From Diplocarpon mali (Eukaryota; Ascomycota; Leotiomycetes; Helotiales; Drepanopezizaceae), in NCBI GenBank assembly GCA_024741835.1, contig JAENRP010000355.1:1-44368 (forward strand): DNA of 44,368 bases. Direction: 5' to 3'. A program made the position numbers and the translations under genes. The notes under the pieces are model-generated. The model saw nothing but the letters and a program-made list of their open reading frames with translations. It was not told where the DNA came from and made no database searches. The stretch's first letter is position 1. Each line of letters begins with the position of its first letter. Below, piece by piece: positions 282-43,874 of the stretch.

Positions 282-304
282 ACTTATAGGACCGGCTTAT
301 AGGT
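282..304. repeat. 23-bp palindromic repeat, copy 1 (element A)
   Basis: ACTTATAGG...CTTATAGGT. Read on the minus strand in the A polyprotein frame as TYKPVLQV. Inherited in A' at 36659. Confidence 0.8.
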
Positions 305-1716
305 TAAATTGGAAAAATCTTAGTCTTTATCTAAGGGTTTAAAATTGCTTATATCGCTGTTAGTTCTTATAAAGGATTCAAAGGTTGTATCAATTTCTAA
401 TTCGTCTTTTAAGGGGAATAAGGTCTAGTCGCATTAATAAAAGCGCTTTAATTAATTAGCTGCAAAGGTTCCTTTAATATTAACTTTATTAAGTTCCTAA
501 AGAGAATAGTATCCTTTTTCTTTCTATTCAAATTTAACCTTAAATAGACTAAGCTATTAATAGTCAAGTTTAGTATCTGCTAATATATTAATACTTCTTA
601 TAATATTATAGACTAAGATAAGATTATCTTTTTAAATAGGGTGTATTTTAAGTACTTTAGAAGCAGCCTACGCTTCTTTAGCTTTTTCTTAATATCGTTT
701 CTTTTATAGAATAATTTCCTTTATATCTATATCTTAAAGCTTAAGTTATTAGTATCTTATTATAAGTAAATCAGAACAGTTCCGAATTTGACTATAGTCG
801 AATAATCTTTAAATAGGCTATTAGGATTTAAAAGGGAGCTATGCCTCTTTACTATAAATAAGGAAGAATAGTATAACTCTAATCGGTTTATAAATTATTA
901 TTCAATAAGTAAAGAGTATTTTATAAAAGCGTTTTATCTAATCCTTAAATCCTTTATAAGTAACTTTAGATAGACTATTAAGAATGTTATAGTATCCTTA
1001 TTCTACTACTCTATTAGCTTTCGAGTTATATACTAAGATTTAAACCCGTTTAATATTATATTTTCGTAAGAAAGCTTCAACTACTCCTTTATTTTCAAGG
1101 CCTCTATTAATAGTTAATCTATTAAAAAGTCTATAGCAATAGATTATATCTTCTTAAAGGAACTTTGCAATAGATTCAAAGTTAGCAGATTTTAAAGGTC
1201 GTCTTTTAAGCCATCTTAATAGGTCTTCCTTTATTAAAATAAAATATATTATCTTATTCTTAGTAATTAATACTTATATAATATTAAAGCTAACTTTATA
1301 GAAAAGGCCCAATAGCTAGGTTAAGAATAAGGGATTTTCCTTATAACTAGGTTTTCATTTCTAATAGAGGACGCAACTCTTTATAAAAGCTTTACAATCC
1401 TTAAAAGAGCCTTTTTAAAAGAATTTTCTTAAGAGTTAGTAGTAAGTGAACTTAGCTCCTTAGTAGCCAGTTTCCTTATAAATATCCTAGATAGCCTTAG
1501 CCCTTAGTTTTTCATTATCTAAGTAGAGTTATATAAGAAATGAGTTATCGCTCCTTTTAAATAATCGTCTTCCTTATATTAGATAAATCAGAGCTTTAGC
1601 TTTAAATTTCTAAAAATCCTTAAAAGCAACTGTCTTTAGTTATTTAAATATAATTAAAAACTTCGCAATTTCTTTAAAGTCACTTAAGTAGTTAGGTAAT
1701 AAAATTCTCTTATTTG

Positions 1717-1739
1717 ACTCGCAGGCCAGACTTATAAGT
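1717..1739. repeat. 23-bp palindromic repeat, copy 2 (element A)
   Basis: Starts ACTCGCAGGCC. Flanks TTTG and CGAA extend the symmetry. Minus-strand peptide TYKSGLRV, in frame with the A polyprotein. Confidence 0.85.
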
Positions 1740-3605
1740 CGAATCCCTTTAAGGCAATATATTAATAGATAACTAACTTCATTTTCTACCTATTTATTAA
1801 TATCTATTTTGTCTTCTTTAATTAAATTAAAAGGGTAGGGCCGAGTTCTTCTTAAAAGGCCGTCAGCGGCGGTATTTTTTATTTTTAGAATATATTTAAC
1901 TTCAAAGTCCATTAGTCTTATTTAAGTAATCCATTTTATTAACAAGGCTCTTAATAGGTTACTTGCAACTCTATTCAATTGTTCTACTAGCACTTTAGTA
2001 TCAGTTTTAAAAATGAAATAAGTACTATAAAGGTCGCTTCTTATCTTTTTTATCGCTTTTAAAGCGCCTTTACATTTCTATTTAATAGTATTATACTTTA
2101 TTTCCGCTAGATTCTAAAGACCACTTTTAAAGTAAGCTAAATGTCTTTTCTACTAGCTATTAGCTTATTAAAGGATAGCATCCTATCTGATTAAGCTTAT
2201 ATTAACTATTAGTATAATTGGCCTAGCATTAGCTCTATAGTCTATTTTAATTAGATAAGGCGCCTTAAGTAACGCTTACTTTAATTATTTTATAGCCTTT
2301 ATTTAAGGTTTCTCTTATTGAAACTCAGCCCCTTTCTAAAATAAGGAGTAAATAGGTACTGCCTTTTTAGCGAAATCCTTAATCCAAATGCGATAGTATA
2401 CTATAACTCTAATAAACGCGCGAGCTTCTACTATATTATTATACCTCTTCCATTTGTCGATTTTAAGTACTTTAGCCCTTTAAAGACTTCGGCTATTAGA
2501 ATCAGTAATAAAACTAACAATTTCCATTAATAAGAGATAGTATTATAACTTCGGACCAACTATTGCTTTTGCCCTTTCGAATCGTATAAGTACCTAGTCT
2601 AGGTTTTAAATATATTCTATTATAAATCGTTATATATTAAGGAGAACTTCTTTATAGTTATAGAATGATCTTAATCCTTTTACTCCTATATCATCTATAT
2701 AAGGGAGTGCAATATTAAGTATACAATCTATTAATATCTTATAGATTACTTAAACAAATTAAGCAATTGAATTTATAGCCCCTTAAGGTAATCTTATCAT
2801 TTGAAGTAGCCCGAGAGGGGTTTGAATTACTATTATATCTCTCGATTTAATATTAAGAATAAATTGGTCGTATCTAGAGAAGAAGTCAATAAGAGAACTG
2901 CAGGTTAATCCTGCGAATTCATTCGAGAATTTATCCATATTCGGAGGAATATTAGCGTCTCTAACAGTTACTCAGTTCATCTCTAAGAACTCGAGAACAC
3001 CTTGCTTTAGCCTGTCCTTTAACATTTCGATTACCTTTTCTTAGAGAGCTTTAGGGACCCCGAATGTTTTCTCTTGCCAGGCTTTATAAGGTATTATCTT
3101 AATCTTAATATAAGGCGTGACCTCTTCTCGAATCTGGCCAAGTTCTATTTAATCAAAAGCTAAGGCGTCCTCTTGATTTATTAAGGTTTTATAAAGTAGT
3201 TTGCATTCTTGCTTTATCAAGTCTTCTTTAATTTTCAGTATATCGAAACGTTCTTTTATTAGTTAATATCCAATAGGTTTATTAGAAAATCTGCCTATAA
3301 TAAACTTATCGAATTTACTACTTAGCTTCAGAGGTCGAAGCTTCTTATCTTATTTAAACTAATTATTTAGTCCTTTAAGCTTTAAGCTATTAAAGATTCC
3401 CTAATCTACCGGTTATACTTTATCGGCCTTGCTTTTATATATAGTTCGAATATTAGTTAGTACTATGCTTCTCTACTTCTTTCCTTTTTTATCAAATCTT
3501 ATAAAACGATCTGAATTTTCCTTTTTAAAAATAAATAAAAGATTTTCTAAGTTATTAATTTAAAGTATATAAATGGAAATATTATTAGTAATTTTATTAT
3601 TTTTC

Positions 3606-3628
3606 ACTTATAAGTCTGGCTTATAAGT
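3606..3628. repeat. 23-bp palindromic repeat, copy 3 (element A)
   Basis: CACTTATAAG and CTTATAAGTG form perfect 10-bp arms around TCTGG. Minus-strand peptide TYKPDL-stop-V. Confidence 0.85.
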
Positions 3629-3767: not shown

Positions 3768-3790
3768 ACTCTTGGTCTAAGACTGTAAGT
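3768..3790. repeat. 23-bp palindromic repeat, copy 4 (element A)
   Basis: The flanks AATTTG and CAAATT are perfect complements, extending the palindrome to 35 bp. Minus-strand peptide TYSLRPRV. Confidence 0.85.
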
Positions 3791-4299: not shown

Positions 4300-6600
4300 A
4301 TAAATAATAATAGGGCTTTTTATTGCAATTGCTAAACAATTTCGATTAATATTCTAAGATATTAAAGCTATTACTATAATATTATAGTACCTTTAAGTTC
4401 CTTCGTTTTCTATAATCTAAAGATATTTAATTAAGGCTAGGTGCTTCTTAAAGTTCTTTTATATTATAATTTCCATTTCCTTATTATTATTCAAATCTTT
4501 AAAGGCTATTAGGATATGCTTTCTTAGCACTTTATTAAAGCGTTTAATTAAATTAAATAGGTCTTTAAATATAAGGTTAATTTGCTAAGCTATAATATTC
4601 TCTATAGCTTTCTCTATTGCAATTGAACTAGCGTATTTATTAACGAATTTTTCCTATTTTAATATCTGTCTCTTTCGCTTAAGGTTAGGGGTCTGCGTAA
4701 TAACTTCAACTTCTTAATCTTTAAGCTTAGAGCCATCTTTATCTATTATATCTCTAATCAATTTATTTGCTATATTAGCTTTATCCTTATCTATTGCAGT
4801 TTTAGATTATTAAGTGTCTTTTAGCATTTGGACTTTATATTAAGATTCTTGAGTTACACGCGCTAATTTCTGGACTTTGGCTAGTTTTATTAGTATTAGT
4901 AGAGTAGAAGATCTAGAAGGACGCTAAGAATTCTAAGGGTTCCTAGATATAGAAGTAGCATTAATATCAGTTGAAATATTATTATTAACCTATCCTAAGA
5001 TAAAGATGCCTTTAACTTCTATAGCTATTTGATTAGAAGCTAGGTCCTTAAGAACTCCCTTAAGTAGATTACTAGTTAGACCTATATATATATAAATTGG
5101 GATTTTAGCATTTATATCTATAATATACTATCGTTTGACTAAATTCTCGTCCTATTTTATACTATATATTATTATTCGAATAGTCTGTAACTATAAGCGA
5201 TTCTAGTACTTTTTAATAGGAATAGCTTCTGGCCTAGGATCCCTAATATAAAGCATCCTATACTTATTAATATATATAACCTTAGTATTAATAAAATGAA
5301 GGAAAAGAGGGCAATTATTGCGATACTTATATAGAGCGCAATTGAGTTCTTCATTATTGCAAAAGTTGCAGGTTAGTTATCTTCTATTGCTATTTCCTTA
5401 GTACCCTATAGCATTAATATTAGTAAAGTGCTAGTTAAGATCAATTCCTCCTTCTTTAGCCAGCTATTGCGTTCTTATATTAGCCGGTTATTCCAAATGA
5501 TAAAAAGCAGGAGTCTAATAATAGGAACTACTAAATTGACTTATAGTAGCTGAGTTTTATCTATTACCAAACTAGGGAATATGCTATTTTTCTTATAAGA
5601 GATTATTAATCTTAGTTTTCAAGCTTTAGATTCGGAGTTCTGCAAATTAGGTCTTAAGTTCCTTAATTCTAAGGTTAGATCTTACTCCTAGATCGGGCCT
5701 GCGAGTAAAAGGTATGACTATTAAGTTCTTCTTTGCCTCTTTTATAACTTCTAAAGCTTTTAAGTATTCTTAGACCAGGCTCTTAAGGTCTTTAGTATAA
5801 AAGGGAGTAGGGGCTTTTTCCTACTTTATAGCATTAATGGTTCTTTTATTAAGATCTGATTTTAAAGCAAAGGCCGAGAATTCCTTAAATAAGGCAAAGG
5901 TTATAGGGTTTTGCTTATTAATCCTAAAATACTTAATAATCTTATTTTAAAGGCCAGTAGGTAATCTAAGTAAGAAAAGGCGGCCTCTTTCAATTTTGCT
6001 AAGTATTTTCTAGCTGATTAAGGTATTTAATATATAAGTAAAAGTCCGATAGTAGTTTTTAAGTTCCTTAAGAGTATAAGTGATTAGAACAAATTCCTTT
6101 AAGAAAGTTAAGGTATTGCAAATCTATTATCTATCAAATTCTTAGAATTTAGACTTAAGAGCCTTAATAAGGAGTTCTTATAAACTATACGTTTTCCATT
6201 TGAAAAGGGATTTGATAATATCTTTACTTATATAGTTATAGTAGTAAGGAAGTTGAGAAATCATATCCTCTTATATAATATTAAAATCGTAATAAGTTTC
6301 CTTATATTACTTAAGGAAATTAGTAATATTAGCGCTTATAAAGTAAGGAGCGCTAGGGGAACTAAAGAGGGGAAAGTGACTAATAATAGCCTTAAATGCG
6401 GCTATTATCGTTTTATACTAACTGTCTAAGTTAATAGAATCTATAAGGGGCAAAGGAAAAGCTTTAATATTGCGAGATTAATTGCTAAAAGGAGTACTTC
6501 GAAATTCAAAAGGGCTTAAAGAACATTTAGAATCTGAGTTAATCTTAAAGTGATTAGGACGAGTTTAAAAAGATTTAAATAAAGGGTTAATAAAAAGTTT
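4300..6600 (-). pseudogene. Element A gag (relic)
   Basis: The structural capsid and nucleocapsid protein of the gypsy element. The minus strand gives a long helical capsid-like stretch (SAPYFISANITNFLKQYKE near 6290-6350, with a stop at one Gln), then a lysine-rich part. A zinc-knuckle-like cluster follows, with Cys codons at 5368-5370, 5359-5361, 5338-5340 and 5311-5313, the last followed by PLF. The spacing is degenerate and no clear His remains. A charged linker leads to the protease. An in-frame palindromic repeat (5684-5706, FTRRPDLGV) lies between capsid and knuckle. The exact start is not determinable. Confidence 0.7.
5684..5706. repeat. 23-bp palindromic repeat, copy 5 (element A gag)
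   Basis: ACTCCTAGATC...GCCTGCGAGT. Minus-strand peptide TRRPDLGV, in frame within gag. Confidence 0.85.
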
Positions 6601-6639: not shown

Positions 6640-7387
6640 TAAAAAAGTAGATAGCAGTCTTAAGTTATTTAAAGATATCTTTTTATCCTCTTATTTATAG
6701 GCTAGGCCTAGGAGTAGAATTCCGGATTCTGCTAAAAGTTTAATCTAAGTTTGCTAAGAGATTCTAAGTAGGTATTAAATAACTAATAAAAGCGTTGCAA
6801 CTAATTATAATAAGATAAGGTTTACTTAATTAAGGACCAATTTCTAAGATAAGGTTTATATTTAAGATTCTTCTTAGCCTTTAAGCTAATTCCTATTAGT
6901 CCTTAGAATAAAAGGGTCTTTAAAGACGATTCTAAGGCAATTTTTAGAGTTTTATTAAGCTAAAGCGGCTGAATTATCAGATTCGGATTTCTAAGGATTC
7001 TAAGGAGGCACTTCCAATTGGAGTTTGCGCTTAGTATTACTTAAGTACTCGAAACTACTGCTATTTGAGATTGCTATTATAAGGTTTGCCAAACTTTTTA
7101 TATTAAGAAGCCGAAAATTCCGAAAATCTCAAAGTTAAGGAAGAGAATAAGGGTTTTCAAAGCAAAGCTAAAAAGGGAAAGTCTAAGGTTATTAATAGTT
7201 GCTAAATGAAAATCAATAGTTCTAAATAATTAAGCAATTAAAGATAAGGGTTTTAAAGTTAATTAAAATGCTATAAGTGTTTTAAAGATATATTTCAAAG
7301 GCCGGTCTCTTATTTATAAACTAAGAGATTAATAAGGTCGTATAAGGACGGAAATCTTAAGAAATCGGTCCTTATATAGGTTACTAA
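6640..7387. other. Unassigned AT-rich sequence between element A and B1
   Basis: No domain is recognised. It should hold the 5' leader or LTR of element A, but no matching LTR exists elsewhere in the window. On the plus strand one frame gives a lysine-rich stretch (about 7110-7200) followed by KCYKCF near 7266-7285, faintly like half of a gag zinc knuckle, with RIP-type stops. On the minus strand the palindrome at 6693-6715 reads STPRPSL. I cannot decide which strand was coding. Confidence 0.3.
6693..6715. repeat. 23-bp palindromic repeat, copy 6
   Basis: Core TAGGCTAGGCCTAGGAGT. The first ACT has become ATT. Followed by AGAATT. Minus-strand peptide TPRPSL-stop-I. Confidence 0.8.
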
Positions 7388-7634: not shown

Positions 7635-7659
7635 CTATTTGCATATATCTCTTTAGTAA

Positions 7660-9400
7660 GAAGGTAGATTATTTAAAAGCTTCCTCTTTAGTACTTTTAG
7701 CAGATCTATATATTATTGATTTCAATATATCAAAGGCTTGTCTTAATCTTCTTATTCTTTATAACTATTAGCCGAATCGTCTATTAGTTATTATAATATA
7801 TATTCTATTTAAAGAAGGAGTCTATGCGAATCTCCTTAAAGAGGCATTTTATAGCTATTATCTCCTTTGTAGTAGAAACTATACTATAGAGTTCTACTTT
7901 AATAGAAGAGAGCGTAATAATCGCTTAGCGATTTGCTTTCTAAATAATCGGTCCTTTAAATAAGAAGAAGACATATCCTTAGGAGGATCTGCAAGTCTCT
8001 CAGTTATCTTTAAAAGAAGTATCTAAAGATGCGACCAATTGGTATTCCCTAGCCTTAAAGCTATAGGCAATTCTTAAGAAGCGCGTGCTATATAGGTATT
8101 AAAGCGTCTAATCTGTAGTTAAAAGGTACTTAAAGCTTAGATTAATTAGAAAGAAAGATAGTTAGGAGGCTGCGAACGCAATATCTAAGCGTATTATAAT
8201 CGTTATATAGAGAATAGAGCCTATTTTCTCTTAGTACTCCTTTACCTTTTCTAAGGAAGCTTGCCTTAAGTTCTTAATAAACTCCTTCTTTAGTAATAGA
8301 GTATTAAGCACTCTCCTTATATTAGTCCTAAACTTTTGAGCGATCTTTTCAATATAGGTATTATAAACTAAGGAGATCCTCTTTACCTTCCTATCTTAAA
8401 TAATCCTTACTTTAAGGAACTAGGAGATATCTCTTATAATAGTAAGCTTATATGCCCTCTTTAAGTCTTTAATCAAATGAGTCGCCCGATTTAAGTTAAA
8501 GGCCTTATATAATACTTAAATATTATTAATATAAAATGCTATAAAGACTATATAATCCTTTATTATGAAAATATAAGGCTCTTCGCCTAATAGCTTGAGT
8601 TAAAGGCCTTTAAGCGTTCCTACGAAGTTCTTATACTATAGCGCTAAAGAGTCTTTCAGCTTATAAAGCGCGCGGTCCAGTTCTACTACTATACTAAGGC
8701 GCTTAAAGCCATTTAATAAGAAGCATATGACTAGAGCACTCCTTAGGTCTTTAAAAGCATTAATAAACGCATTAATAATATCGAACTACTTTACTTTTAT
8801 ATCAAAGTATATAGTAAGCGCTATTAGTACCTTAAAAGACCTTACTATAAGCGTGGCTGCGTAGATTGAGAAAATTAAAGCTTTGTCTTAGAGATCCCTT
8901 TGCATAATTAGCTATAATCGGCACTTTAGAAGCTTACTAGAGCTATTAATCTTATAGGTAAAAACCCATTTTAATAATATTAGTAAGGGCTTTAAGTAAT
9001 CCCTTTATACGATTCTCTAGCAACTTTAAGATTCTAGATTCCTAATCTCCTAGCGCCCTCCTTCTTTAAACCGTTTGCTAAAAGGGTACTTCTCTAGGTC
9101 TAGCCATCCTTTCGAAGGCTTTGGCAAAGAGCCTTAGTATTATAAGCGGTTAAGAGACTGCGCTCTATCCTTTGCCTAACTATCAACTATAGCTTTAATA
9201 ATTGTATAAACTATCAAATAGTTCTTCTTATCCTCCCTTATCTATTTATTTGCTTAAAAGGTTAATATAAACTCTTATATATATAAGGAGTAGGGTAAAT
9301 CAATATTACTTTAAGAGAGTATATACTTTAAAGTAGTAGTATATACTTTTAAAGTCTCTTATTGCTTAATGCTTAAGCATTTTATCCTTTTTTACTTAAG
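7660..9400 (-). pseudogene. B1 copia reverse transcriptase and RNase H (relic)
   Basis: The reverse transcriptase shows KWVFTYK-like sequence near 8960, KQFDIINAF near 8785 and a FYINDI-type catalytic box near 8520-8540 (FYVDDI in relatives). RNase H follows with DASF near 8010, then a GPIIWKAxRQATxTLSST-like segment near 7895-7950. These are the usual C-terminal Ty1/copia domains. Stops fall mostly at Gln, Trp and Arg positions. The equivalent point in B2 (between 8891 and 8896 here) is where element C inserted. Confidence 0.8.
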
Positions 9401-10300
9401 AAAAGGGAGTTCCTCCTTGCGCTTTTCTCTATAGGTCTCTTCTTCTATTTTTATTATTATTAGAGGTTCCTTTAAGAGTCTAGGTAGCTCTATCTCCTAA
9501 GCTTATAGTCTTTAAGCTAGTATTATAACTTAAGGTATTATATTATTAAGGCCTACTCCTTTTACTAAGTCGCTTTTTATAAGACTATTAAAGCTTCTCC
9601 TAGATCTTAGTAGTAATGCCTTTAGCCTTTTACTAGAGTTTACTAAGGCTTGCCTTTATAATTAAAGACTTTGTCTTAAAGCCCTTAAGCTATTTCTATT
9701 CTTATATAGAATAGTAGCTAAAGATCTGCCGATCGCCTTATAGAACTTATCTTTAAAGACTCCTTTAGAGTTGTCTATAGTTCCTTCTTTAGTAGGGCCT
9801 TTATAGGGAATCATTACCCTTAAGCTCTAGTTGCTATTTGCCTTTTTAAAGACTGGCGCAGTGGCTTTTAATTCGCTTGCTTTTACTTCTGAGTTTTTAA
9901 GCGGGTCTTTTAAAGAATTTAGATTTAAGTTAAGGCCTTTTATATTATTAGTTAAAGGCTATAGAGCAGCGTCGGTTTATAATATAGGCTCTTCTTATAT
10001 AGCGGCTTCTTTTATAGCAATTGCATTCAGTCTTGCGATAAGCTCTAATTCTTTGAAAATGCCTTTGAACTTAGCGTTCTAAGCTCCCTTTCCCTTTCTA
10101 ATCAATTAAAGGGTTGTCTTAAGTTCTTAGTATAATATAAGGTTTGCGCGCTTAGCTTCTGGACTATAAAAGAGAGACTTATCGAATTCGATATTATAAG
10201 TTATTATTACTTACTAAAGCATAAGAACCTAGATTTTATAAATATTAAAGGTAATATATCCAACTAAGTAACTTAAGTGCTCTTATAGTTCAATTTTAAA
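9400..10300 (-). pseudogene. B1 copia integrase-RT linker (relic)
   Basis: A variable, acidic and serine-rich stretch of the polyprotein between integrase and reverse transcriptase, with no named domain. It matches 27170-28070 in B2. The antisense strand happens to be open at 9831-10082 and at the matching B2 position, but the family homology is on the minus strand. Confidence 0.6.
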
Positions 10301-11750
10301 GGTTTGGCAATCCTTTCCTACCTCCCTCTCCTTAATTAAAGGGTATATGCAAGCGCTATATATATAAACGCAACTTTAGTTAGGCTTTAAGCTTGCTATT
10401 ATCTGCTTAATAAGCAGCAGCTTATAAAATCGAAAATACTACTTAAACTAATTATAAAGAGCCTTGCTTAATAAGATCATCTTCTTCCTAGCGAGTAGGG
10501 AGATATTATAAAGGTATATAGCAGCCTTTATAACCTTCGGCTAAAGGCTTACTAGAAGCCTGGCGTAGATCCTCATTTTAATAAAGCGTTTAATCAACTC
10601 CCTTCCTACTTGCTCTACGCCTTTATTAAATTAGTATATATAAGTAGGAGTAAGTTCTAAATCGATTCCCTCCTCTTTTACCTATCTTTGGTACTTTATA
10701 AGAGAGTCTTCCCTTAGGGAGATTACTAAAGTATTATTATCTTACCTAATCTTGCAAATAGAAAGCCTATATTAGCGTTTCACTTATGCTTTAAAGGCCT
10801 AAAGGACCTTTATAACTACGTCTTTGCCCTTTGATCTTAATAGGAACGTCTAAAGTATATTATTATATTTATCTTTAATTAAAAGAACTTATAAATAATT
10901 ATTATATAAGTTATTTAAAAAGTTAAAGAGATCTTAAGAGATCTTGAAAAAGGGCCTTAGAGATCGGTTCTTAAAGGTAGCGTAAGAAATAACTTGCTTA
11001 GCAGACGCTACTACGTATATAGGGCACTCTAGCCTTTATATTCCCTTGATCTTTACTCCCTTAGCGCACTTGACTAGCGCTTAAAGAGCCTCTGCGCCTA
11101 GGTGGCTAGCGCAAAGGTGCTACGTATACGCATTATTATCCCGTACCTTAGTAGGTATATAGCTAGACTAGAACCTATTATAAAGCATTATCTTAGCTAT
11201 AGGGAATGCTATTAAAGTAAAGAAGTTATATTAAAGCATATTTAAAAGATCTAAATAGTTAATAGGCTTATATTTAAAGAAAACAAGATTATAGCAATAC
11301 TTTAATTAAGCTTGCTTTATAAAATCTCTAATGCTCCTAGAGCGTAAAGTGAGGTCTACCTTAGAGTATTAAAAACCCTTATCTGCAAGGAGCCTCTCCG
11401 AGATAATATTAGTAGTAAACTCCTTTATAATAGCAATATTATAAAGCGTTATTCCTATAGGAGAGCCGTTATACTATAGAAGAGAGTCTGCTATATATCT
11501 ATTACCTCTTTTAATAATTAGGAGTCTTAAGGTACCTATTTTAATATATTACTACAAGTCGCCAGAAGGCTTAAAGGTGCCTGCGATAAGTAAATCCTTT
11601 GAATTAATAATATAAGTAGCTATGCAATTATTAAAGAGCATACTTAAGAAGAGCAGGTAGTATTTTAGCTTAAAGAGGTAATAGATATTAAACGATTCTT
11701 TAAAAGCGTTAAAGGCAAAGGGATCCATTATTATAAAGACTAGTGAGTTC
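10300..11750 (-). pseudogene. B1 copia pre-integrase and integrase (relic)
   Basis: The pre-integrase part reads KDLLIAGTFKPSGDL near 11565-11610, and SPIGITLYNIAII with NIILERLLADKGF follows toward 11360. The integrase core lies at about 10620-11130, with the C-terminal core reading RDNNTLVISLREDS, then SVEQVE-like sequence holding the catalytic Glu. The last segments resemble the region of copia integrase ending in QEYLGYLVGY. Multiple TAA and TAG stops are present. Domain identity rests on the better preserved B2 copy (28100-29600). Confidence 0.75.
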
Positions 11751-11899
11751 TCCCTTTTACTTGAACTATCCTCTCTAAAGGCTAAAGCCTTTCCTTTAAA
11801 TTTATTAATTGCTATTACTACAATATTATTCTCCTTAAGCCATACTTAAAGACCCTTGAACTAGTCTCTTACGTTTAATGCCTTTTGTATTCGTAGGAC

Positions 11900-13084
11900 C
11901 TCTTCTTATAAAGAGAGAACCTTTATATTTTCCTTACGCCTATTTATAATATATAATAGTTTCTAATAGTCCTAGGGCTTCTAATAGTGATTTTTAAAGC
12001 CTCTATAAGGGCACTTAGGCCTGATCTCCCTTCTGAAGCTTATAGAGCGATTTCGGGAGCTGCTTGCTAAAGCCTGCGAAAGGGTTTCAGCATTTAAGAG
12101 AGACTCTCGAGTAGTAAAAACTGCTAGCCCTTTATTATCGATCGCTTTATTAGATTTAATACCTGCTAAGGTGCGGCTTAACTACATTAGGTTGTGCTTA
12201 TATAAGGTTCTTATCTGCTTATTAATAATAATTTCCTCCTTTAAGTGAGTCGCCTAACTCAGATTGATCTTTACTATAATTAAGTCTAAAAAGTCAATAA
12301 CTCCTAGTCTCCCTTTGATCTTAAGGAGATTGTATTATTCTGCTAGGCAGTACGCCTCCTACTACTCCCGGATCTACTATTAAGTATTGGTTCTTCTAGC
12401 TTTGCCTTAGTATAGTATATTACAGTACTAGAGCCTTATCTAAGACTGAATAGCCTTATTAGAAGGCGCAATATCACGCTTTAAAATAGATACTAGGCCT
12501 TAGAGTAAGAGTTGCTAATTCACTAAATTAGTATATAGGTTATTAGCAGTAGTTCTACTTATAAGAGTATCTCTATTAGGTATTAAGGAAGAGAGCTTCT
12601 TAACTTGGATTTATACTTAAGCTATTGCGGAAGCTAGGAGCGTTCTGTTAACGGTCTTAGAGACCTATTTTAAAAGTAGTTCGTAGTATTTGCATTAGGT
12701 CTTCCAAGTTTCCTTATGCATATAGTGCTCCTTTATTAGGATTTTATATTTATCCTTAATATCCTTATAAGACGCCTATAAAGGAGGACCTTTTAATAGA
12801 TCTCCTAAGGGAAAGCAGGCGTAAATCTATTCGAATAGAGTCGCTATATACTCTTTATATAACCTCGCGTATACTATACAAAGGTTAGCCATTTCCAATT
12901 CCTTAAGCTCTTATATAGAGGGAGCTTAAGGCTTAGTCTTTATAATTGATTTAAATAAAAGTCTCAGATCGGTAAAAATAGTGATATTATAAAGCTTTAT
13001 AAAGAATATATATTTATTAAACCACTTTACTTAAAAGGTAAAGGTATTAAAGCGAGGCTTAAAGATACTTAAAGAGTTAGATAT
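11900..13084 (-). pseudogene. B1 copia gag (relic), start codon lost
   Basis: Homologous to the gag of B2, whose ATG is at 30862-30860. Here the matching codon at 13084-13082 reads ATA, a C-to-T change on the plus strand as RIP would make, so initiation is destroyed. Near the C-terminal end (about 11960-12020) a degenerate CCHC-like cluster reads CPYRGFKNHY; the second Cys is Arg in both copies. Several stops interrupt the frame. Confidence 0.7.
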
Positions 13085-13201
13085 ATTAAATAGAGTCTAG
13101 TGAAAAGGTTAGGTATATAAATGGAGTTTGCAAATAAGGTTCGATCGGAAAATAGAGATTTATTAATTGAAAATAAAGGTCCTTTAAGTTGTTATAAATA
13201 C

Positions 13202-13447
13202 TATAAAACAGAGGGGAGACAATACAAGAATAGGCCTAAGGGAAGACCTAAAAACAAAGAGGAGGAAGCACCATAAGCAGGCTCTCTTAGACAAGATATT
13301 AGGAATAAGTCCTAAGTATAGGGTATATTCAGTACTATAGCGACACGCGCTGTCTTTATATACAGAAGGTGGCCCTTTTATCCTCCTACTGTCCTACGCC
13401 GATTATATAATATATATTATAAGATCTATCTATCTTAGGTCTTTATA
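13202..13447 (-). repeat. B1 5' LTR
   Basis: About 246 bp, pairing with 7388-7634. It is less mutated than the other copy in places (for example GACAATACAAG against GATAATATAAG). On the minus strand it starts TATAAAGA, which fits TG...CA ends after RIP. No primer-binding site could be recognised next to it. Confidence 0.85.
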
Positions 13448-13629: not shown

Positions 13630-13700
13630 NNNNNNNNNNNNNNNNNNNNNNNNNNNNNNNNNNNNNNNNNNNNNNNNNNNNNNNNNNNNNNNNNNNNNNN
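13630..13700. other. Assembly gap (71 N)
   Basis: A run of N. It hides the left part of a palindromic repeat at 13701 and the boundary of relic E1. Confidence 0.99.
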
Positions 13701-13718
13701 TAAGCTAAGCCTAGGAGT
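13701..13718. repeat. 23-bp palindromic repeat, copy 7, truncated by the gap
   Basis: The last 18 bases of the unit (TAAGCTAAGCCTAGGAGT) start exactly at the end of the N run. Confidence 0.7.
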
Positions 13719-16107: not shown

Positions 16108-16112
16108 TAATA
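16108..16112. repeat. Target site duplication of B2, left copy (TAATA)
   Basis: TAATA directly left of the 198-bp LTR. An identical TAATA follows the right LTR at 31266-31270. A 5-bp duplication is usual for LTR elements. Confidence 0.85.
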
Positions 16113-19223: not shown

Positions 19224-19229
19224 AGCCCT

Positions 19230-29600: not shown

Positions 29601-30862
29601 ATGTCATTCTCCTTAAGCTATGCTTAGAGACCCTTGAACTGGTCTCCTGCGTTTAAAGCCTTTCGTATTCGTAGGACCTCCTCTCGCAAGGGGAGAACCT
29701 TCATATTTTCCTTACGCCCGTCTATAGCATATAACAGTTTCCGACAGTCCTAGGGCTTCTAATAGTGATTTTTAGAGCCTCTATAAGGGTACTTAGGCCT
29801 GATCTCCCTCTTGGAGCTTATAGAGCGATTTCGGGAGCTGCTCGCTAGAGCTTGCAAAGGGGTTTCGGCATCTAAGAGAGACTCTTAAGTAGCAAAAACT
29901 GCTAGCCCTTTATTATCGATCGCTCTATTGGATTCAATGCCTGCTAGGGCGCGGCTTAGCTATATTAGGTTATGCTTATATAGGGTTCCTATCTGCTTAT
30001 TAATAATGATTTCCTCCTTTAAGCGAGTCGCCTAACTCGAATTGATCTTTACTACAACTAAGTTTAAAAAGTCAGTAACTCCCAGTCTCCCTTTAATCTT
30101 AGGAAGACTATATTGCTCTATTAGGCAGTACGCCTCCTGCTACTCCTGGATCTACTGCTAAGTATTAGTTCTCTTAGTTTTGCCTTAGCATAGTATATTG
30201 CGGTATTGAAGCCTTATCTAAGACTAAATAGCCTTATCAGAAGGCGTAATATCACGCTTTAAGATAGATACTAGGCCTTAGAGTAAGAGTTGCTAGTTGA
30301 CCAAATTGGCATGCGGGTCGTTAGCAGTAGTTCTACTTATAAGAGTATCTCTATTAGGTATTAAGGAGTAGAGCTTCTTAGCTTGGATTTATACTTAAGC
30401 CATTGCAGAAGCTAGGAGCGTTCCGTCGACAGTCTTAGAGACCCATTTTAGAAGTAGCTTATAGTATTTGCGTTAGGTCTTTTAAGTTTCCTTGCGCAGG
30501 TAGTGCTCCTTTATTAGGATTTTATATTTATCCTTAATATCCTTATAAGAAGCCTATAGAGGAGGAGCCTTTGACAGATCTCCTAAGGGAAAGCGGGCGT
30601 AAATCTGTTCGGATAGAGTCGCTGCATACTCTTCATACGACCTTGCATATACTACGCAGAGGTTAGCCGTTTCCAGTTCCTTAAGCTCCTATATAAAGGG
30701 AGCTTAAGGCTCGGTCTCTATAATTGACTTGAATAGGAGTCTTAGATCAGTAAAAATGGTAATATTATAAAGCTTAGCAAAGAATATATATTTACTAAAC
30801 CACTTTACTTAAGAGGCAGAGGTATTAAAGCGAGGCTCAGAGATACTCGAAGAGTTAGACAT
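29600..30862 (-). pseudogene. B2 copia gag (relic)
   Basis: Starts at ATG 30862-30860 (MSNSSSISEPRFNTSAS); the ATG is intact here but lost in B1. A degenerate CCHC-like cluster (YPYRGSKNHY) lies near 29755-29800, with the first Cys mutated to Tyr. The frame continues into the pre-integrase part. An overlapping open frame at 30805-31041 is in another phase and is not the gag. Confidence 0.75.
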
Positions 30863-31054
30863 TTTAAATGGAGTCTAGTGAAAAAGGTTAGGTATATAAA
30901 TGAGGTTTGCAAATAAGGTTCGATCGGAAAATGGAAATTTATTAATTGAAAATAAAGGTCCTTCGAGTCGTTATAAGTACTCGAAAAGTCGGTTAGGAGC
31001 TCGAAGGGCCCTCTAGCCGGTTGCATGCGAAGAGAAAGCATATTAAAGTGCTTA

Positions 31055-31067
31055 CAGGGCTTATAAC
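31055..31067 (-). promoter_or_regulatory. B2 primer-binding site, methionine-tRNA-like
   Basis: On the minus strand GTTATAAGCCCTG lies directly next to the 5' LTR. With one G-to-A (RIP-type) change it resembles GTTATGAGCCC, the complement of the anticodon arm of CAU-anticodon tRNA. Copia elements are known to prime from an internal fragment of initiator tRNA-Met, so this fits the family. Confidence 0.6.
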
Positions 31068-31265
31068 TGTAGTGCGGTCGGCTGGAGGGCCTTCATTAGG
31101 TCGCTTAGGAGGCTCGCTAATATAGATGAAGATGATTGATTGTATTATTATCTAATATATATATGGTAAGGAGACTTCGGAAAGAAAAGGGAGAGTCTAT
31201 GACTTAGCAGGAGTCACGTGGAGGGTCTCCAGAATAAGTGGAGACTCCGCCCATTCTGCACGACA
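31068..31265 (-). repeat. B2 5' LTR
   Basis: 198 bp, starting TGTAGTGCGG and ending CTGCACGACA on the plus strand. It pairs with 16113-16310 and is followed by the TAATA duplication. It holds CACGTG at 31215-31220, which the left copy has lost (CATATA). Confidence 0.92.
31215..31220. promoter_or_regulatory. CACGTG E-box in the B2 5' LTR
   Basis: CACGTG after GGAGT. The matching position in the left LTR reads CATATA, lost by transitions. Confidence 0.4.
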
Positions 31266-31270
31266 TAATA
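31266..31270. repeat. Target site duplication of B2, right copy (TAATA)
   Basis: Exact match to 16108-16112. Removing B2 and one copy restores a continuous E1 frame. Confidence 0.85.
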
Positions 31271-31330
31271 ATAAGGCTATCTACTTCATCTATTAGCTTA
31301 TCTTCTGAATTTATATTATTATATATTCTA

Positions 31331-36377: not shown

Positions 36378-37965
36378 TTTATTTATTATTTAAGGAAAGT
36401 AATAGGAATACTATAATTAAAGGCTAATATTAAAAATACAAAATAAGTTAAAGTAAGCAAGAATTTAAAGTGATCCTAAAAGATCCATATCTTAAATAAT
36501 AAAAGAGGCAACCTTACTAAAAATATAAAAATAAGAATTAAAGGAAGGTAGGATAATTAATAAGCTAGGAAATCGTTTAATATTCCTATTTATATTCTTT
36601 AGATATTTTAAGAATAATAACTTAAGGTTGCAATTAGTTAGGTATTTTAATATTTTTTATTTATAAGACCGGCTTATAGGTTAAGTTGGAAAAATCATAG
36701 TCTTTATCTAAAGGTTTAAAGTTGCTTATATCGCTATCAGTTCTTATAGAAGATTTAAAGGTTATATCAATTTCTAATTCGTCTTTTAAAAGAAATAAGG
36801 TCTAATTGTATTAATAAAAGTGCTTTAGTCGATTGGCTGCAAAGGTTCCTTTAATATCGATTCTATTAAGTTCCTAAAGAGAATAGTATCCCTTTTCTTT
36901 TTACTTAAACTTAACTTTAAATAGACCAAGCTATTAATAGTCAAGTTTAGTATCTACTAATATATTAATACTTCTTATAATATTATAGACTAGAACGAGA
37001 TCATCTTTTCAAATAGGGTGCGTTTTAAGTACTTTAGAAGCAGCCTATACTTCTTTAGCTTTTTCCCTATATTATTTCTTTTATAAAATGATTTCCTTTA
37101 TATCTATATCTTAAAGCTTAAGTTATTAGTATCTTATTGCTAGCAAATTAGAATAGTTCTGAATTTGACTATAGTCGAACAATCTCTAAATAGGCTATTA
37201 GGATTTAAAAGGGAGCTATACCTCTCTATTATAAATAAGGAAAAATAATATAACTCCAGTTAGTTTATAAATTATTATTCAATAAGCAAAGAGTATTTTA
37301 TAAAAGTATTTTATCTAATTCTTAAATCCTTTATAAGTAACTTTAGATAGCCTATTAAGAATGTTGCAATATTCTCACTCTACTACTCTATTAGCTTTCG
37401 AATTATATATTAAGATTTAAACCTATTTAATACTATATTTTCACAAAAAAGCTTTAACTACTCTTTTATTTTCAAGGCCTCTATTAATAGTTAGTTTGTT
37501 AAAAAGTCTATAGCAATAGACTACGTCTTCTTAAAGGAACTTTGCAATAGATTTAAAGTTAGTAGATCTTAATAGTCGTCCTTTAAGCTATCCTAATAGG
37601 TCTTCCTTTATTAGAATTAAATATATAATCCTATTTTCGATTATTAATATTTATATAATATCAAGACTAACTTTATAAAAAAGGCCTAATAGCTAGGTTA
37701 GGAATAGGGGATTCTCTTTATAACTAGGTTTTCGTTTTTAATAAAGGACGCAACTTTTTATAAAGGCTTTATAATCTTTAAAAGAACCCTTTTAAAAGAA
37801 TTTCCTTAAGAGTTAGTAGTAAGTAGACTTAGCTCCTTAGTAGCTAGTTTCCTTATAAACATCTTAGATAGCCTTAGCCTTTAGTTTTTTATTATCTAAG
37901 TAAAGTTATATAAGAAATAAGTTATCGCTCCTTTTAAATAATTGTCTTCCTTGCATTAGATAAAT
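36378..37965 (-). mobile_element. Element A': second copy of the 3' end of gypsy element A
   Basis: Matches positions 1-1587 with abundant transitions and few indels. It encodes the integrase end on the minus strand with the same palindromic repeat (36659-36681 matching 282-304). Homology stops abruptly at 37965, after TTAGATAAAT, where the LTR of element G starts. The rest of A' should therefore lie beyond the other end of G, outside the window. Confidence 0.9.
36659..36681. repeat. 23-bp palindromic repeat, copy 15 (A')
   Basis: ATTTATAAGACC then GGCTTATAGGT. Orthologous to copy 1. Confidence 0.8.
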
Positions 37966-38570: not shown

Positions 38571-38639
38571 AGGGGTTGGCAACGTATTTACGTAGTAAGT
38601 GCGAGTGGAAAATAGGGTAGATCGAATAGAGCGAATCAG

Positions 38640-39780
38640 GCAATTGTAGCTTCTAGCTTTCTCTTAGCTTTTCTAATACTTTTACTAGGCCGTACTACTT
38701 ATTAAAGAGCTTTTGGCTTAGCCGGTCCAGTTTCCAATTCTTAGTACTAATTAGTATATTATCTCCTATAGTTCAATCAACTAGCTAGCGGTAGAGATCT
38801 ATAAGCCGTTTCATTTTAGTTTATTATACTTAAAGAGACAACTAGGCGAATTAGACTACTTTTTAAGCTTTAGTAGTTATATAGAGTGCTATTTTACGAT
38901 TTACTTTCTTAGTTGCTATCTATAAAGGCTTTAGGTTAATTAAATTCTAAGAGGAGCAAGCCTTATAGCTATTTAGCACTTAGAAAGGGGAAATTTGCCC
39001 TAGGGATTTGTAAGGCAAGGTTAATTAGGCAATATCCATTAGAGGCAAGAGACAACTCCAATTGTCTTAATAGTATAAGTAGAACGGCCTAAGGCGTTAT
39101 TTTAAGTACTAATTCATAATCTCGGTTTAGCTATTGATATTAGGGTTATAAGCTATAGTTAGCTTGACCTTTATACCTAGTATTCGATAGAGCTCTTTCT
39201 AAAAGGTAGAGACAAATTAAGCGCCTCTATTTAATAGAATCGAGTTGGGCATACCGAAATGGCGTATCTAATAAACTAAAAACAACTCTGCAAGGTCTTT
39301 TATATCGACCGAATTATAGCATAGAATCGAAACTGCCTTCTTTAATAACCTATCGATAATTATAAGGGCAAAATTATAACTGAGTTCGTTAAGCGGAAGC
39401 TTTATAAAATCCATTATTAAGTATTAATAAGCTCGTTTAGGAATTGGCAAGGGTTATAGGAAACCAGAGGTCTTATTATAATAAGCTTTTATTCTTAAAT
39501 AATAATAGTTCTAAATATAAGTGCTAATATCGCTACTAAAGCTTTTCTAATAGTATTTTCTTCCTACTAGAAGTCTTATTTTCCCGATTCCAGCGTATAT
39601 AACGCAAGGTTACTTATATATATAATAAATTAGAGCTATTTGTAGTTTAGGAGGTTAGGATAGTATAACGAGTCTACCTTAGAAGAAGAGTTTGCCTTAG
39701 CTAAGTTCGTAGTCGAGGCTATGGTTCTACGCCTTATCTCGGAACTTTTATAGCTTAAGGGAGGTCTTATTAGCTTAAAT
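38640..39780 (-). pseudogene. Element G integrase (relic)
   Basis: The zinc-binding N-terminus reads GIGKIRLLVGRKYY with the Cys pair degraded (about 39520-39640). The core reads LIMDFIKLPLNELSYNFAL with the first Asp near 39405, ILLNRGAQFVSTF near 39215-39255 (the usual SDRGxQF, second Asp now Asn), and TEIMN near 39115 with the catalytic Glu. Family identity is clear. Activity is lost through the Asp change and stops. Two palindromic repeats lie just upstream at 39875-39942. Confidence 0.85.
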
Positions 39781-39874
39781 AACCTTATTGATAATATAAT
39801 AGTTTGCTATATTATACTTAACCTTAGACATTAGGTCAGCAGGTGCCTCTATTAGCGCGATTAGCACAGTCGTT

Positions 39875-39897
39875 ACTCGTAGGCTAGGCCTAAGAGT
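39875..39897. repeat. 23-bp palindromic repeat, copy 16 (G)
   Basis: ACTCGTAGGC then TAGGCCTAAGAGT, followed by GGAATCG. Minus-strand peptide TLRPSLRV, in the G polyprotein frame. Confidence 0.88.
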
Positions 39898-39919
39898 GGA
39901 ATCGATCTATACTAAAGTC

Positions 39920-39942
39920 ACTTATAAGCCAGGCCTAGGAGT
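39920..39942. repeat. 23-bp palindromic repeat, copy 17 (G)
   Basis: ACTTATAAGCC then AGGCCTAGGAGT, followed by GGAATCG. Starts exactly 45 bp after copy 16. Confidence 0.88.
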
Positions 39943-39949
39943 GGAATCG

Positions 39950-41300
39950 CCTTTAGTAGCAAGTACTTTTATAGAGAGCTTATTATTAGGTAAGAGCTGC
40001 TAGTGGCGTAAAGCTCGTTTCCTAGCCTTAAGAGGGGTCAGCTCTTAGTCTTAATATAAGAGTATATTAGCTAGCGTATTTATTATACCTATTTAGTATA
40101 TAATAAGGAAGTTGAAATTAGTAAAGAACTCCGCTTAGTAAGCCTACTAGGCTATTAAGTCCTTAGTTATTATAAAGTACTTAAGGACTTTATAATTTAT
40201 ATATATATATACTATTTTCTAAGCCATAAGTAGCTCTGCCTTATATTAGTAGAACGATTTAAAAATTGCTAAGAGCTCCTTATTGTAAATAGGGTAATTC
40301 AACTCGGCGTTATTTATAATCTTTAAGAAGTACCTGATTAAGTGGTAGTTCTTATCTTCCTAGAGTTAAGAGAGTACGCCGGCGACTACTCTGTCGGAGG
40401 CATTAGTCTTAAGCCTTATTTACTTCTAAGGGTAATAGTAGTATAAGATCGGGGTTATTTAAAGGCTTAAGCGCAGAGCTTCCTAAGCTTCCTTATAAGC
40501 GTTATTAAAATCAAAAGGAACATTTCTTATAAAAGCTATTAAAGGTTAGCAGATATAACTATAACTTTAAATAAACCTTTAGTAAAAGTTACAGAACCCT
40601 AGGAAGCTTTATACGCTATATACATTCTTAGTGTATTTCCACTTTTAAATAACTAAGACCTTATTAAGGTCTACTTCAATTTTATAAACTCTAATTATAA
40701 ACCCTAGGAACCTAGTCTTAATAACTCTAAACTCGCTTTTCTTAATATCTACTTAAAGGCCATAGCATTAGAGAATTCCTAAGATCTTCTTAATATAAAT
40801 CTTATAGTTAAAGGAGTTTTTTAAGTAAATTAGAATATTATTTAAGTAGGTAAAGTAGAAATCATTAAAGTAGTTAAGGAGAATATTATTAATAAACTGC
40901 TAAAAGGTGGTAGGCCCATTTATCAGCCCGAATAGCAAAACCTTATATTTATAGGTCCTATAACGCGTGCGAAAGGTAGTTAGGTCCTTAGCGTTAGTTA
41001 ATATGCGGATATAGTAAAAAGCTTATTATATATCGATTTTTATAAAAACATAAGCTTTCGATATGCGTGCCATTATCTTATCGATAAGGGGAATCGGGTA
41101 GGGGTCTTTCTTTATTAAGGTATTTAGTTTCTAGTAGTTAACGTATAGACGTAAGGAGCTATTAGCTTTTCTAATAAAGAGGATTAAGGCTACTTAAAAG
41201 GAACTTAAAGCTTTAATAAATCCTTTATATAAGTTCTTAAGAATATAGCTCTTAACCTTAGAAAGCTATTTATTAATAAAGCGGCAAAGGGGTTTGATTA
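39950..41300 (-). pseudogene. Element G reverse transcriptase and RNase H (relic)
   Basis: The minus strand reads KKDPYPIPLIDKIMARISKA near 41065-41125, then DLTTFRTRYRTYKYKVLLFG near 40940-41000 and FYFTYLNNILIYLKN near 40830-40865. The last is the catalytic box, YLDD in active relatives, with both Asp changed to Asn. RNase H and the tether region follow toward 39950. These are strong Ty3/gypsy signatures. Confidence 0.9.
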
Positions 41301-41836: not shown

Positions 41837-41859
41837 ACTCGTAGGCTAGGACTAGGAGT
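41837..41859. repeat. 23-bp palindromic repeat, copy 18 (G)
   Basis: ACTCGTAGGC then TAGGACTAGGAGT, followed by GGAATT. Minus-strand peptide TPSPSLRV, in frame. Confidence 0.88.
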
Positions 41860-41881
41860 GGAATTCGAGTTCGCAGATTTT

Positions 41882-41904
41882 ACTTGCAGGCTAAGACTAG
41901 GAGT
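41882..41904. repeat. 23-bp palindromic repeat, copy 19 (G)
   Basis: ACTTGCAGGC then TAAGACTAGGAGT. Starts exactly 45 bp after copy 18. Minus-strand peptide TPSLSLQV. Confidence 0.86.
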
Positions 41905-42539
41905 AGAATTTAAGGCGTTAGTACTTACTAGTACTAAGAGCTAGGCTTAGGCCATTCTAAGGTCTTTGTCCTTAGCGTCTATTATAGCTGCTTAACAATC
42001 GATATCTTATTAAGCTATTAGGGATTTTATTAGCTATAAGAGATCGATTAGTACGCGTCAATTAAAGTAGAGGATAATAGGTATATCCTTAGGCTAAGAG
42101 ATGCTATTTTTTCCCCTTTCGTAGGACTATTTAAGGTTATAGTACTTTAAGAACTTCCTATTAATTAAAATGTCGATTGCTCTTAAGCTTATAATTAAGA
42201 AAGGGAAGTTTATTTATCACCTATCGATTATAAAGGTAAGTAAGATAGCGAATCGAATGGTTTCTCCCTTAAGGCTATTATAGCTAATAGGAATAATCAG
42301 TTTAAGCAATTTAATAAACTTTACCTTAAGTCTTTAAGAGAGCTAGTATATTAGAAACATCTTAATAATACTAAAAATATTAGCTCTACTATTAATATAA
42401 GTAACTATTTTAATAAATGATCTATTTCGAGCTAGTTCTATAGGAACTAAGAACTAGCGGCCGCCTATTAATAAGCGGGAATTAAAATCCAAGTCTTTTT
42501 ACAAATTATAACCTATATTATAATAAGAGTCTTTGCTAT

Positions 42540-43874
42540 AGCTTAGCAGTTTCTTAATAGCAGGTTGTTTTCCATCTTAACTTTAGCTATTATAAACTCG
42601 CCTTGCTTCTTTAGCTTTAGGCAATCTATCGCATAGTGACTAGGGGCTTTGCAATTATAGCAGAGATTAGATAACGGCTTTAGGCTAGCAGACCTTTCTT
42701 AATAAGTCGCTGGCAAAGGGAAACGAGTATAAGGAGCTAAGGAGGTAGCTATAGTAGTAAGTCTCTATAACTCCCTTTTCAATATACTAAGGGCGCGGTC
42801 CTTTAAAAGAGAGAATGCAATAGCAAAGGCGACTTATTAAGTATTATAGGCCTCTTTTTACTTGATATTATAGGCCTTGCGGTCTGCAATAGCTAAGAAC
42901 TTATCTAAAGTAGTATAATTATTATTTATTTTATACTTTTTTACTTAAAGGTCGTTCTTTAAAGCTAAAGAGACCTTTTTATAAATATTATTAAACTAAT
43001 AAGACTAATCGATCTTTCTAGCTATAGTAAGGGTAACGAACTTAGATTAAAACTTATTATATAATAATAAACCTATAGTTAGCCTACTATATTTAAGCTT
43101 AGCGGACTAAATATAGTTATAATTAAAGAACCTTTAATCTAAGACTTTAAAAATATTAGTAGTATATATAAACTTATTAGTAAAGATAAGATCTATATAT
43201 TATAGGATTAGGTTTTAAGCTTTACTTATTATATACTTAAAGTAAGCAATGATTTAGTCTTCTTTTAAAGTGAAGTTACTTAAGTACTTTTAAATAAATA
43301 CCTTTATAGCCATCTTCCAAGTATTATAAGTGATTTTGCCTTAGTAGTTATTAAAATGGGTTTAAAGGTACTTAATTCGATAGGAGTCGATAGCTAGGAC
43401 TAAAGGTCTAATAATTAAAAGGTAATAGTCTAGGAGAGGCAGTAAGTCGGCGGTAAAGGACCGAGTATTCTAAGGGCTAGCACTTAAGGAAGAAGGGGCG
43501 GTAGTATTATTTTAAAGAGTAGCAGCTATAGTAGCGCTAATAAGGTTCGCAATTTCAGCCTATTAAGTAGCTAAAAAGAGAGGGGCCGATATAGTAAGGG
43601 TAGACATCAGTTCTTCCTTAATTTCAATTGATAGAAGGGGAGTATTTTAAGAATCTACTTATAGTCTAGGCCTAGGAGTAAAATCAGTACTAAGGGAGGT
43701 TTCTTTTTAAGTAGGCTTAAGAGAGGGAATATCTTTAGGACTAAGGTTGGCAGTAAGGCCTATAGAACTAGAATTAGTAGTAGTAAGGCCTATAGAACTA
43801 ATAGTAGTAAGACCTGGTAGTAGAGGTACGGTTAACCTTTCACTTCTCCTAAGTGGTATAAGATTAAAGGTCAT
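42540..43874 (-). pseudogene. Element G gag with intact zinc knuckle (relic)
   Basis: Begins at ATG 43874-43872 (MTFNLIPLRRSERLTVPLLP). About 400 codons follow in one frame, broken almost only by TAA and TAG at Gln positions. Near the C-terminal end a complete CCHC zinc knuckle, CYNCKAPSHYAIDC, lies at 42621-42662 and would bind RNA. The N-terminal part contains short internal repeats (TTISSIGLTTTNSSSIGLT near 43740-43800) and an in-frame palindromic repeat (43657-43679, TPRPRLQV). It is the best preserved gag in the window. Confidence 0.88.
43657..43679. repeat. 23-bp palindromic repeat, copy 20 (G gag)
   Basis: ACTTATAGTC then TAGGCCTAGGAGT. Minus-strand peptide TPRPRL-stop-V inside the otherwise well preserved gag frame. 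Confidence 0.88.

Follow-up and report, generated by a model that had tools for sequence, protein, structure and literature searches.

Short sequence motifs inside transposons have been described in several settings. The su(Hw) insulator sites of the Drosophila gypsy element, and the Sap1 and Abp1 sites of the fission-yeast Tf elements, are short sites in long terminal repeat (LTR) retrotransposons that are read by DNA-binding proteins of the host; they lie in untranslated regions or in the LTRs. For the palindromic elements of Rickettsia, unoccupied homologues are known. According to an excerpt of PMC10969869, these elements are about 150 bp long and lie in unrelated bacterial metabolic genes. 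The VANC motifs of the Arabidopsis VANDAL transposons are, in the excerpted parts of PMC5735166, short DNA motifs of eight or nine bases, mainly noncoding, which accumulate and evolve via tandem repeats inside the transposons and are bound by a known transposon protein; VANC21 motifs are arrayed one way, and the transposon AT9TSD1, which is no relative of VANDAL, contains VANC6 motifs as well. The GalEa Conserved Hairpin Site is a short conserved palindrome carried by Copia retrotransposons of ascomycetes, and a mismatch inside its hairpin is strictly conserved (PMC5445492, in excerpt). Here we examine a near-palindromic 23-bp unit in the fungus Diplocarpon mali, found in a window of 44,368 nucleotides that is the whole of contig 355 (JAENRP010000355.1) of a 49.37-Mb genome in 676 contigs (GCA_024741835.1). 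From the sequence, we give about an even chance to the reading that the unit is an oriented dyad kept by DNA-level recognition, with a putative factor that reads it, tolerated as an in-frame linker and acquired early by several retrotransposon families.

What does the unit look like before mutation? The window is AT-rich and both CpA and TpG are depleted, at 0.41 of expectation each, which is the signature of repeat-induced point mutation (RIP). RIP converts TpG to TpA and CpA to TpA. The longest listed stop-to-stop frame in the window is 116 codons, and the proteins nearest to the best-preserved open reading frame (ORF) are all from Diplocarpon coronariae (four of four and five of five matches, about 8,000 candidates being scored per search). 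In a table of PMC11527701, LTR elements account for 25–32% of five D. coronariae assemblies by RepeatMasker. The consensus of the original prediction, of the type ACTCGYAGGCY, turns out to be a RIP-mutated form. Unmutated, the unit is ACTCSYGGKCCNGGMCCRSGAGT, present exactly at 118 places in the genome and at none in the control.

The genome-wide search that the original prediction proposed was carried out as a pattern search. The RIP-tolerant 23-bp pattern, ACTYNYRRKYYNRRMYYRNRAGT, matches 7,877 genome places exactly, and the same pattern read backwards matches none. With up to two mismatches, an earlier and stricter pattern gave 1,192 places against 35 in the control, and the intact pattern ACTCSTGGGCCNGGCCCASGAGT gave 254 against none. 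In the window the RIP-tolerant pattern, again with up to two mismatches, has 18 matches, compared with a mean of 0.45 over 20 block shuffles; a 19th unit, at 36659, has three mismatches and was assigned by homology to the copy at 282. The 19 complete copies and the truncated one that had been predicted are thus all present, and their constant length is borne out, since all 19 complete units align without gaps over 23 bp. A wider loci set of 244 kb, made up of the window and 20 stretches of 10 kb picked for containing units (some of them overlapping each other), holds 161 units with up to two mismatches; one shuffle of it holds none. A chance origin of the unit is ruled out by the reversed-pattern and shuffle controls in window, loci set and genome.

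Is the unit a true palindrome? A near-perfect one had been predicted, and near-palindromic it is, but perfect arms it does not have: positions 5 and 19 are mostly non-complementary. Of the 118 intact places, 108 carry C..C there (G..G on the opposite strand) and two carry C..G; the remaining eight are G..C by subtraction, seven of which were seen among the matches listed. Half-sites are paired in 295 of 340 cases and unpaired in 45, while the reversed control gives 19 in all. The complementary flanks that were to extend the unit to about 35 bp hold at one pair, positions −1 and 25 (Y and R), which is near-invariant across sites; other palindromy outside the core is weak. Transversions increase beyond positions −1 and 25, and the core is 23 bp.

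With up to three mismatches allowed, the loci set contains 182 units, which fall into 38 components. We set aside C36 and C37, which are chance-like, and C35, which lies beside an N run, leaving 35 site types, six of which (C29 to C34) have one or two copies each. Units are spread along whole elements and their sequences differ from one another. On the sense strand (assumed for C32–C34), the majority type at positions 5 and 19 is YY at 19 sites, RR at nine, RY at seven and YR at none of the 35 (Fisher p = 0.00016). Counted blind to strand, 28 of the 35 sites combine one C half with one G half, above the expectation for independent halves (p = 0.00013); in both statistics the tandem sites are not independent. 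As DNA, YY and RR are one oriented sequence in opposite directions. YR is the sole type whose peptide lacks arginine, and a peptide cause of its absence is conceivable.

Might the unit act as RNA? It could fold in retrotransposon RNA into a short mismatched stem used for export, packaging or dimerisation. All identifiable carriers are retrotransposons, and a stem forms in three of three intact units (−17.2, −19.7 and −21.9 kcal/mol; z of −2.1, −1.4 and −3.2) and in two of three RIP-mutated copies of the window. The pairing of the arms gives a mixed answer, in counts that rest on partly RIP-mutated copies: it slightly exceeds independence at positions 8–16 (22.4 versus 18.7 of 30), 11–13 (19.1 versus 16.7) and 9–15 (20.5 versus 18.7), but falls below it at 5–19 (4.3 versus 7.1) and 6–18 (12.5 versus 16.7). 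The 5–19 pair is usually a C.C or G.G mismatch, and units in reverse orientation are a different RNA. We regard an RNA hairpin as quite improbable.

Are the silent letters of the unit free to change? The pattern ACNCCNGGNCCNGGNCCNCGNGT, in which the first and second codon positions of the peptide TPGPGPRV are fixed and the wobbles free, matches 108 places in the genome. Limiting the wobbles to the dyad-symmetric series T, Y, K, N, M, R and A leaves the same number, 108 (59 + 49). Among the 100 of these listed, position 3 is always T, position 6 is C or T, 9 is G or T, 12 is any base, 15 is C or A, 18 is A or G, and 21 is always A. The proline wobble at the centre (position 12) thus uses all four bases, while the proline wobbles at 6 and 18 use only C/T or A/G. 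Codon use around the units is freer, with ACT making up 66% of Thr codons and GGC 28% of Gly codons. In a RIP-tolerant version of the test on the loci set, 312 of 356 strand-wise hits obey the restriction, the strand-wise counts being symmetric by construction, and the shuffle yields two hits; 42 of the other 44 fail at one wobble, and in 22 position 3 is C.

The same restraint is seen at four diverged sites, C4, C5, C6 and C8 (nine copies each), which lie in ORF2 of a large Ty3-type element described below. Because RIP makes transitions, we measured transversions. They occur in none of 36 synonymous columns in or adjacent to the unit, compared with 53 of 160 flank columns (Fisher p = 4.6e-6); for first and second positions the figures are one of 64 and 36 of 308 (p = 0.01). 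In pairwise comparisons at C4–C6 there are 0 transversions in 2862 within the unit against 910 in 12497 nearby. Transitions within the unit, at 1333 of 7889, are more frequent than in the flanks (about 0.13–0.14). Over all sites, 28 of 47 transversion differences in the unit fall at positions 9 and 15 and stay inside the classes permitted there. Membership of a site, set at three mismatches, could hide diverged copies; the homologues of C4, C5 and C6 (eight) were as many as the other members, and C8 had one more. That one word is spread over unrelated transposons with its silent letters kept suggests, at the level of sequence, that some factor reads the unit as DNA.

Several observations weigh on the other side. 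The scarcity of transversions is evident only at sites with diverged flanks: at C9, C14, C15, C16, C24 and C26, with few copies, transversions per base in the unit equal or exceed those of the near flanks. The free positions 0, 12 and 24 are likewise devoid of transversions at the four ORF2 sites (0 of 12 columns), though drift within a family would be expected there, so that homogenisation or other causes are possible. As the copies are relatives of one another, neither columns nor sites are fully independent. Lastly, the peptide matters as well, given that one phase is common to most coding sites.

How much, then, can be assigned to the peptide? In the usual phase the intact unit reads T-(P/R)-G-P-G-P-(R/G)-V, and annotated proteins of D. 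coronariae carry T-(R/P)-G-P-G-(P/S)-R-V or close variants. The peptide first proposed, Thr-x-Arg-Pro-Gly/Ser-Leu-Arg-Val, is in the right phase and is the RIP-altered form of this sequence: RIP turns GGG after T into AGG and CCA codons into CTA, which accounts for it. Annotation of such proteins needs caution, because RIP converts the GPGP codons to another form. Stops are fewest in frame 0 on both flanks at 25 of the 35 sites (two by ties), on one flank at four (C7, C20, C22 and C26) and on neither at six (C14, C19, C25, C30, C31 and C32), although for some sites the sense strand itself was picked by stops or by eye. The proposal of one phase, wherever the host frame could be followed, therefore describes the majority and fails as an absolute rule. 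In five of five copies of C14, which lies between RNase H and integrase, the unit is in phase +1, with 6–8 stops against 20–25 in the other frames. At C19 the unit lies 75–80 bp past the stop codon of a Copia ORF in six of six copies examined, i.e. it is 3' untranslated, and its frame relative to that ORF varies between copies.

These data bear on the reading in which the peptide is a functional protein linker and the palindrome a by-product of its codons. The common phase of most coding sites fits it, as do the intact proteins with their T[RP]GPG[PS]RV or close variants, the divisibility by three of 47 of 48 short spacings, the missing arginine-less YR type (0 of 35 sites), and the retention of the peptide at two aligned positions of two ORFs, ORF1 and ORF2, that are 36–38% identical. 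It does not explain why wobbles are restricted symmetrically in 108 of 108 places, why synonymous columns lack transversions at four diverged sites, why codon use around the units is freer, or why one site is noncoding (C19) and another in phase +1 (C14). We consider this reading very improbable, and the peptide as sole cause is ruled out by the wobble restriction, the missing synonymous transversions and these two sites. The earlier description of the unit as a tolerated in-frame linker remains apt as far as the linker goes; alone it falls short, given the conservation of synonymous positions within the unit.

Which elements carry the unit? The carriers are a giant Ty3-type element (I), a second Ty3-type element (II) and a Copia element (III), which make at least three retrotransposon families, plus one unassigned element. 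Unrelated hosts were rightly predicted; within the window, however, the division into gypsy A, chromovirus G and E1/E2 relics gives way, by homology and spacing, to two Ty3-type elements only. The order C30-C26-C27-C28-C14-C1-C2-C3-C4 recurs on contig 1 in two copies with near-identical spacing, and C7 lies between C14 and C1. From this order and spacing the sites would be parts of a single large element, element I, with a length of at least 14 kb, to which about 14 site types can be assigned by spacing. Besides its polyprotein domains it has the two further ORFs mentioned above, whose identity of 36–38% refers to intact forms (P0012 versus P0001, P0002 and P0004). In the alignment of the intact proteins two of three unit correspondences are exact, and the third, near the C-terminus, is approximate. 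ORF1 and ORF2 have no Pfam match, and no match outside D. coronariae in two protein searches. Intact, these paralogous ORFs have about 1,100 codons each; they occupy L005:2200-9999 (contig 1) and pieces of the window between 14,000 and 36,700.

All units of the window lie on the minus strand. In copy alpha of element I the first is C7 at 282–304, in an ambiguous coding frame. Further units of element I are C14 at 1717–1739, in phase +1 between RNase H and integrase; C28 at 3606–3628 and C27 at 3768–3790, both in phase 0 in a weakly supported frame and with the strand from homology; C26 at 5684–5706, in a frame labelled gag-like by eye; and C30 at 6693–6715, placed by spacing near the 5' side, noncoding or in phase +1. 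The domains at 1346–2224 on the minus strand (coordinates converted from residues) are an RNase H above the PF17917 cut-off (2224–1931) and an integrase zinc-binding domain below cut-off (1516–1346). A truncated unit at 13696–13718, abutting an N run, would by its flank be the 3'-side site C25/C31 of copy beta. In ORF2 of element I lie C6 (14121–14143), C5 (14943–14965), C8 (31331–31353) and C4 (31517–31539), and in ORF1 lie C3 (33124–33146), C2 (34009–34031) and C1 (35395–35417). The unit with three mismatches, at 36659–36681, is a second C7 copy, recognised by homology to that at 282.

In element II, C13 (39875–39897) lies downstream of RNase H with C12 (39920–39942) as its 45-bp tandem neighbour; C11 (41837–41859) lies upstream of the reverse transcriptase, with C10 (41882–41904) in the same tandem relation to it; and C9 (43657–43679) is in the upstream part of the element. 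Its domains, again on the minus strand and converted from residues, span 38581–41175: reverse transcriptase (41175–40693) and RNase H are above cut-off, and a Tf2-1-like SH3 domain (to 38581) is just below. Between 14,965 and 31,331 the window has no unit with up to two mismatches; Ty3- and Copia-type domains lie there at about 18.5–22.4 kb. These domains, at 18521–22363 on the minus strand by the same conversion, are a Ty3-type RNase H and a Copia-type reverse transcriptase (19042–18521) above cut-off, with weaker reverse transcriptase and integrase matches, all unit-free. The unit-free stretch of about 16 kb (15,000–31,300) has a higher GC content, about 0.40, and interrupts copy beta of element I. 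Long direct duplications of 88–89% identity pair 8,890–13,208 with 26,665–30,987 and 7,635–8,895 with 17,829–19,089; they are probably copies of unit-free elements.

The Copia carrier is located elsewhere in the genome, outside the window. It matches RVT_2 and a retroviral SH3-like domain above cut-off; two gag-type matches fall short of theirs. A search for its homologues returned seven distant proteins, none named Diplocarpon (three of the seven bear a name), and gave no clean unit-less comparison. The stretch that separates the stop codon of the Copia ORF from the noncoding unit holds tandem GGGGTGATTTTTTTT-type repeats (L029, L030, L033 and L034; 5' of the unit at 1501). The unassigned element, in L006, L016 and L018, has eight to ten tandem units and no Pfam match.

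If the unit were mobile, places without it should be found. In a first test on the loci set, 177 of 182 units had homologues aligned through the unit, with gaps of at least eight at three units of one tandem array. This test could miss large gaps, and it was repeated with the flanks searched apart. Now 172 of the 182 units have at least one other place with both flanks, and the distance between the flanks is exactly 23 bp in 868 of 1,314 pairs. Flank distances below 15 bp occur solely at the tandem-array sites C0, C10–C13, C17, C18, C23 and C24, plus C8 in L015. Those of the arrays are mostly 45 bp short, i.e. one unit and linker fewer; at C23, the last unit of its array, several copies retain only 8 bp of the unit; and C8 in L015 is 9 bp short, a single partial deletion. 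No unoccupied place, such as would define a target-site duplication, was found at non-tandem sites in this set, whose loci were picked for having units. On this observation present or recent mobility is not supported.

What does vary is copy number within arrays. The element II linker downstream of RNase H has one unit in L013 and L016 (site C29), two in the window, three in L024 and four in L026 and L028. Spacings below 100 bp number 48; of these 47 are divisible by three, with 45, 48, 39 and 54 bp predominating. The mobile or actively spreading mini-element of the original prediction is not upheld: the tandem arrays alone vary in copy number, and within this genome family members carry their units at the same sites, a result that the prediction had named, for other species, as speaking against it.

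A weaker form of that proposal is an oriented short element of the Rickettsia kind, inserted both ways into retrotransposon ORFs, surviving where in frame and now immobile. It would account for the recurrence of one DNA word, at about 35 site types, in three or more families, for positions 5 and 19 behaving as one asymmetric sequence in both orientations, and for a copy in noncoding sequence (C19). Apart from the lack of unoccupied non-tandem places, it is opposed by the shared phase of most coding sites, which random insertion would not be expected to give, and by the silent positions, which neutral relics would not retain. On contig 1, moreover, of 51 places listed, one lies inside the 391 kb between 3,708 and 394,936, a stretch unannotated here. 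At position 292,109 of that contig stands a lone unit-like place, distant from the other places listed. We think this form of the proposal unlikely.

How might DNA-level recognition have produced this pattern? The unit would be a putative cis-acting recognition site with the half-site ACTCSYGGKCC, a dyad that is oriented but imperfect and measures 23 bp, or about 27 bp if the outer Y and R are counted. A putative sequence-specific factor, encoded by the host or by an element, would read it, most likely as double-stranded DNA, and the retrotransposons would keep it for that reason. Recognition as duplex DNA is favoured by the silent-position constraint, the dyad symmetry, the presence of both orientations and the noncoding site taken together. 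Units would be placed where extra sequence is tolerated: linkers between polyprotein domains, protein tails and an untranslated end. The coding phase would be a second constraint, imposed by the proteins, and local copies would multiply through in-frame tandem duplication in steps of 39–54 bp. Entry into several unrelated families would have preceded their amplification; an old insertion made both ways would fit, as would the transfer of a cassette in the course of reverse transcription. We infer, then, that a protein reads the unit, that duplex DNA is what it reads, that both orientations are used, and that there was such a first spread.

A more specific version can be put forward tentatively, and we hold it to be somewhat doubtful. 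Ty3 and Copia lineages may share one trans-acting system, in which the oriented 27-bp dyad, disguised as a peptide linker, serves as the licence or address label for one putative DNA-binding factor, crossed from one superfamily to another as a DNA cassette and has had its nucleotides preserved ever since inside coding sequence. Such a factor might counter silencing or RIP, or might position integration.

If a DNA-binding factor does read the unit, then unrelated retrotransposon superfamilies would share one recognition site and keep it within coding sequence, and this would bear on the ways in which such elements of fungi evade genome defence or draw it upon themselves. The proposition can be tested on about 7,900 natural sites, altered by RIP to varying degrees, and on the 118 exact intact ones. 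The main texts of PMC11527701, PMC7864672 and PMC5628827 do not contain the string 'palindrom', and searches of open-access papers on fungal elements, analogues and the species did not bring up the motif, which is weak evidence of novelty.

How does the unit compare with the systems described at the outset? With the Rickettsia elements it shares palindromic DNA lying in frame in unrelated ORFs, here those of the Ty3-type elements I and II and Copia III, and a conserved peptide; unlike them it is 23–27 bp long, is seen only in retrotransposons and has no unoccupied non-tandem site, the one partial deletion apart. With the GalEa Conserved Hairpin Site it has in common a short conserved palindromic sequence in ascomycete Copia retrotransposons. 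The su(Hw), Sap1 and Abp1 sites differ from it in that the fungal unit is mostly coding and is common to several families. The closest worked-out analogue is VANC anti-silencing. Like the VANC motifs, the unit is dense in its transposons and forms tandem arrays of changing copy number; unlike them, it is a dyad of 23–27 bp, mostly coding, and present in at least three unrelated families.

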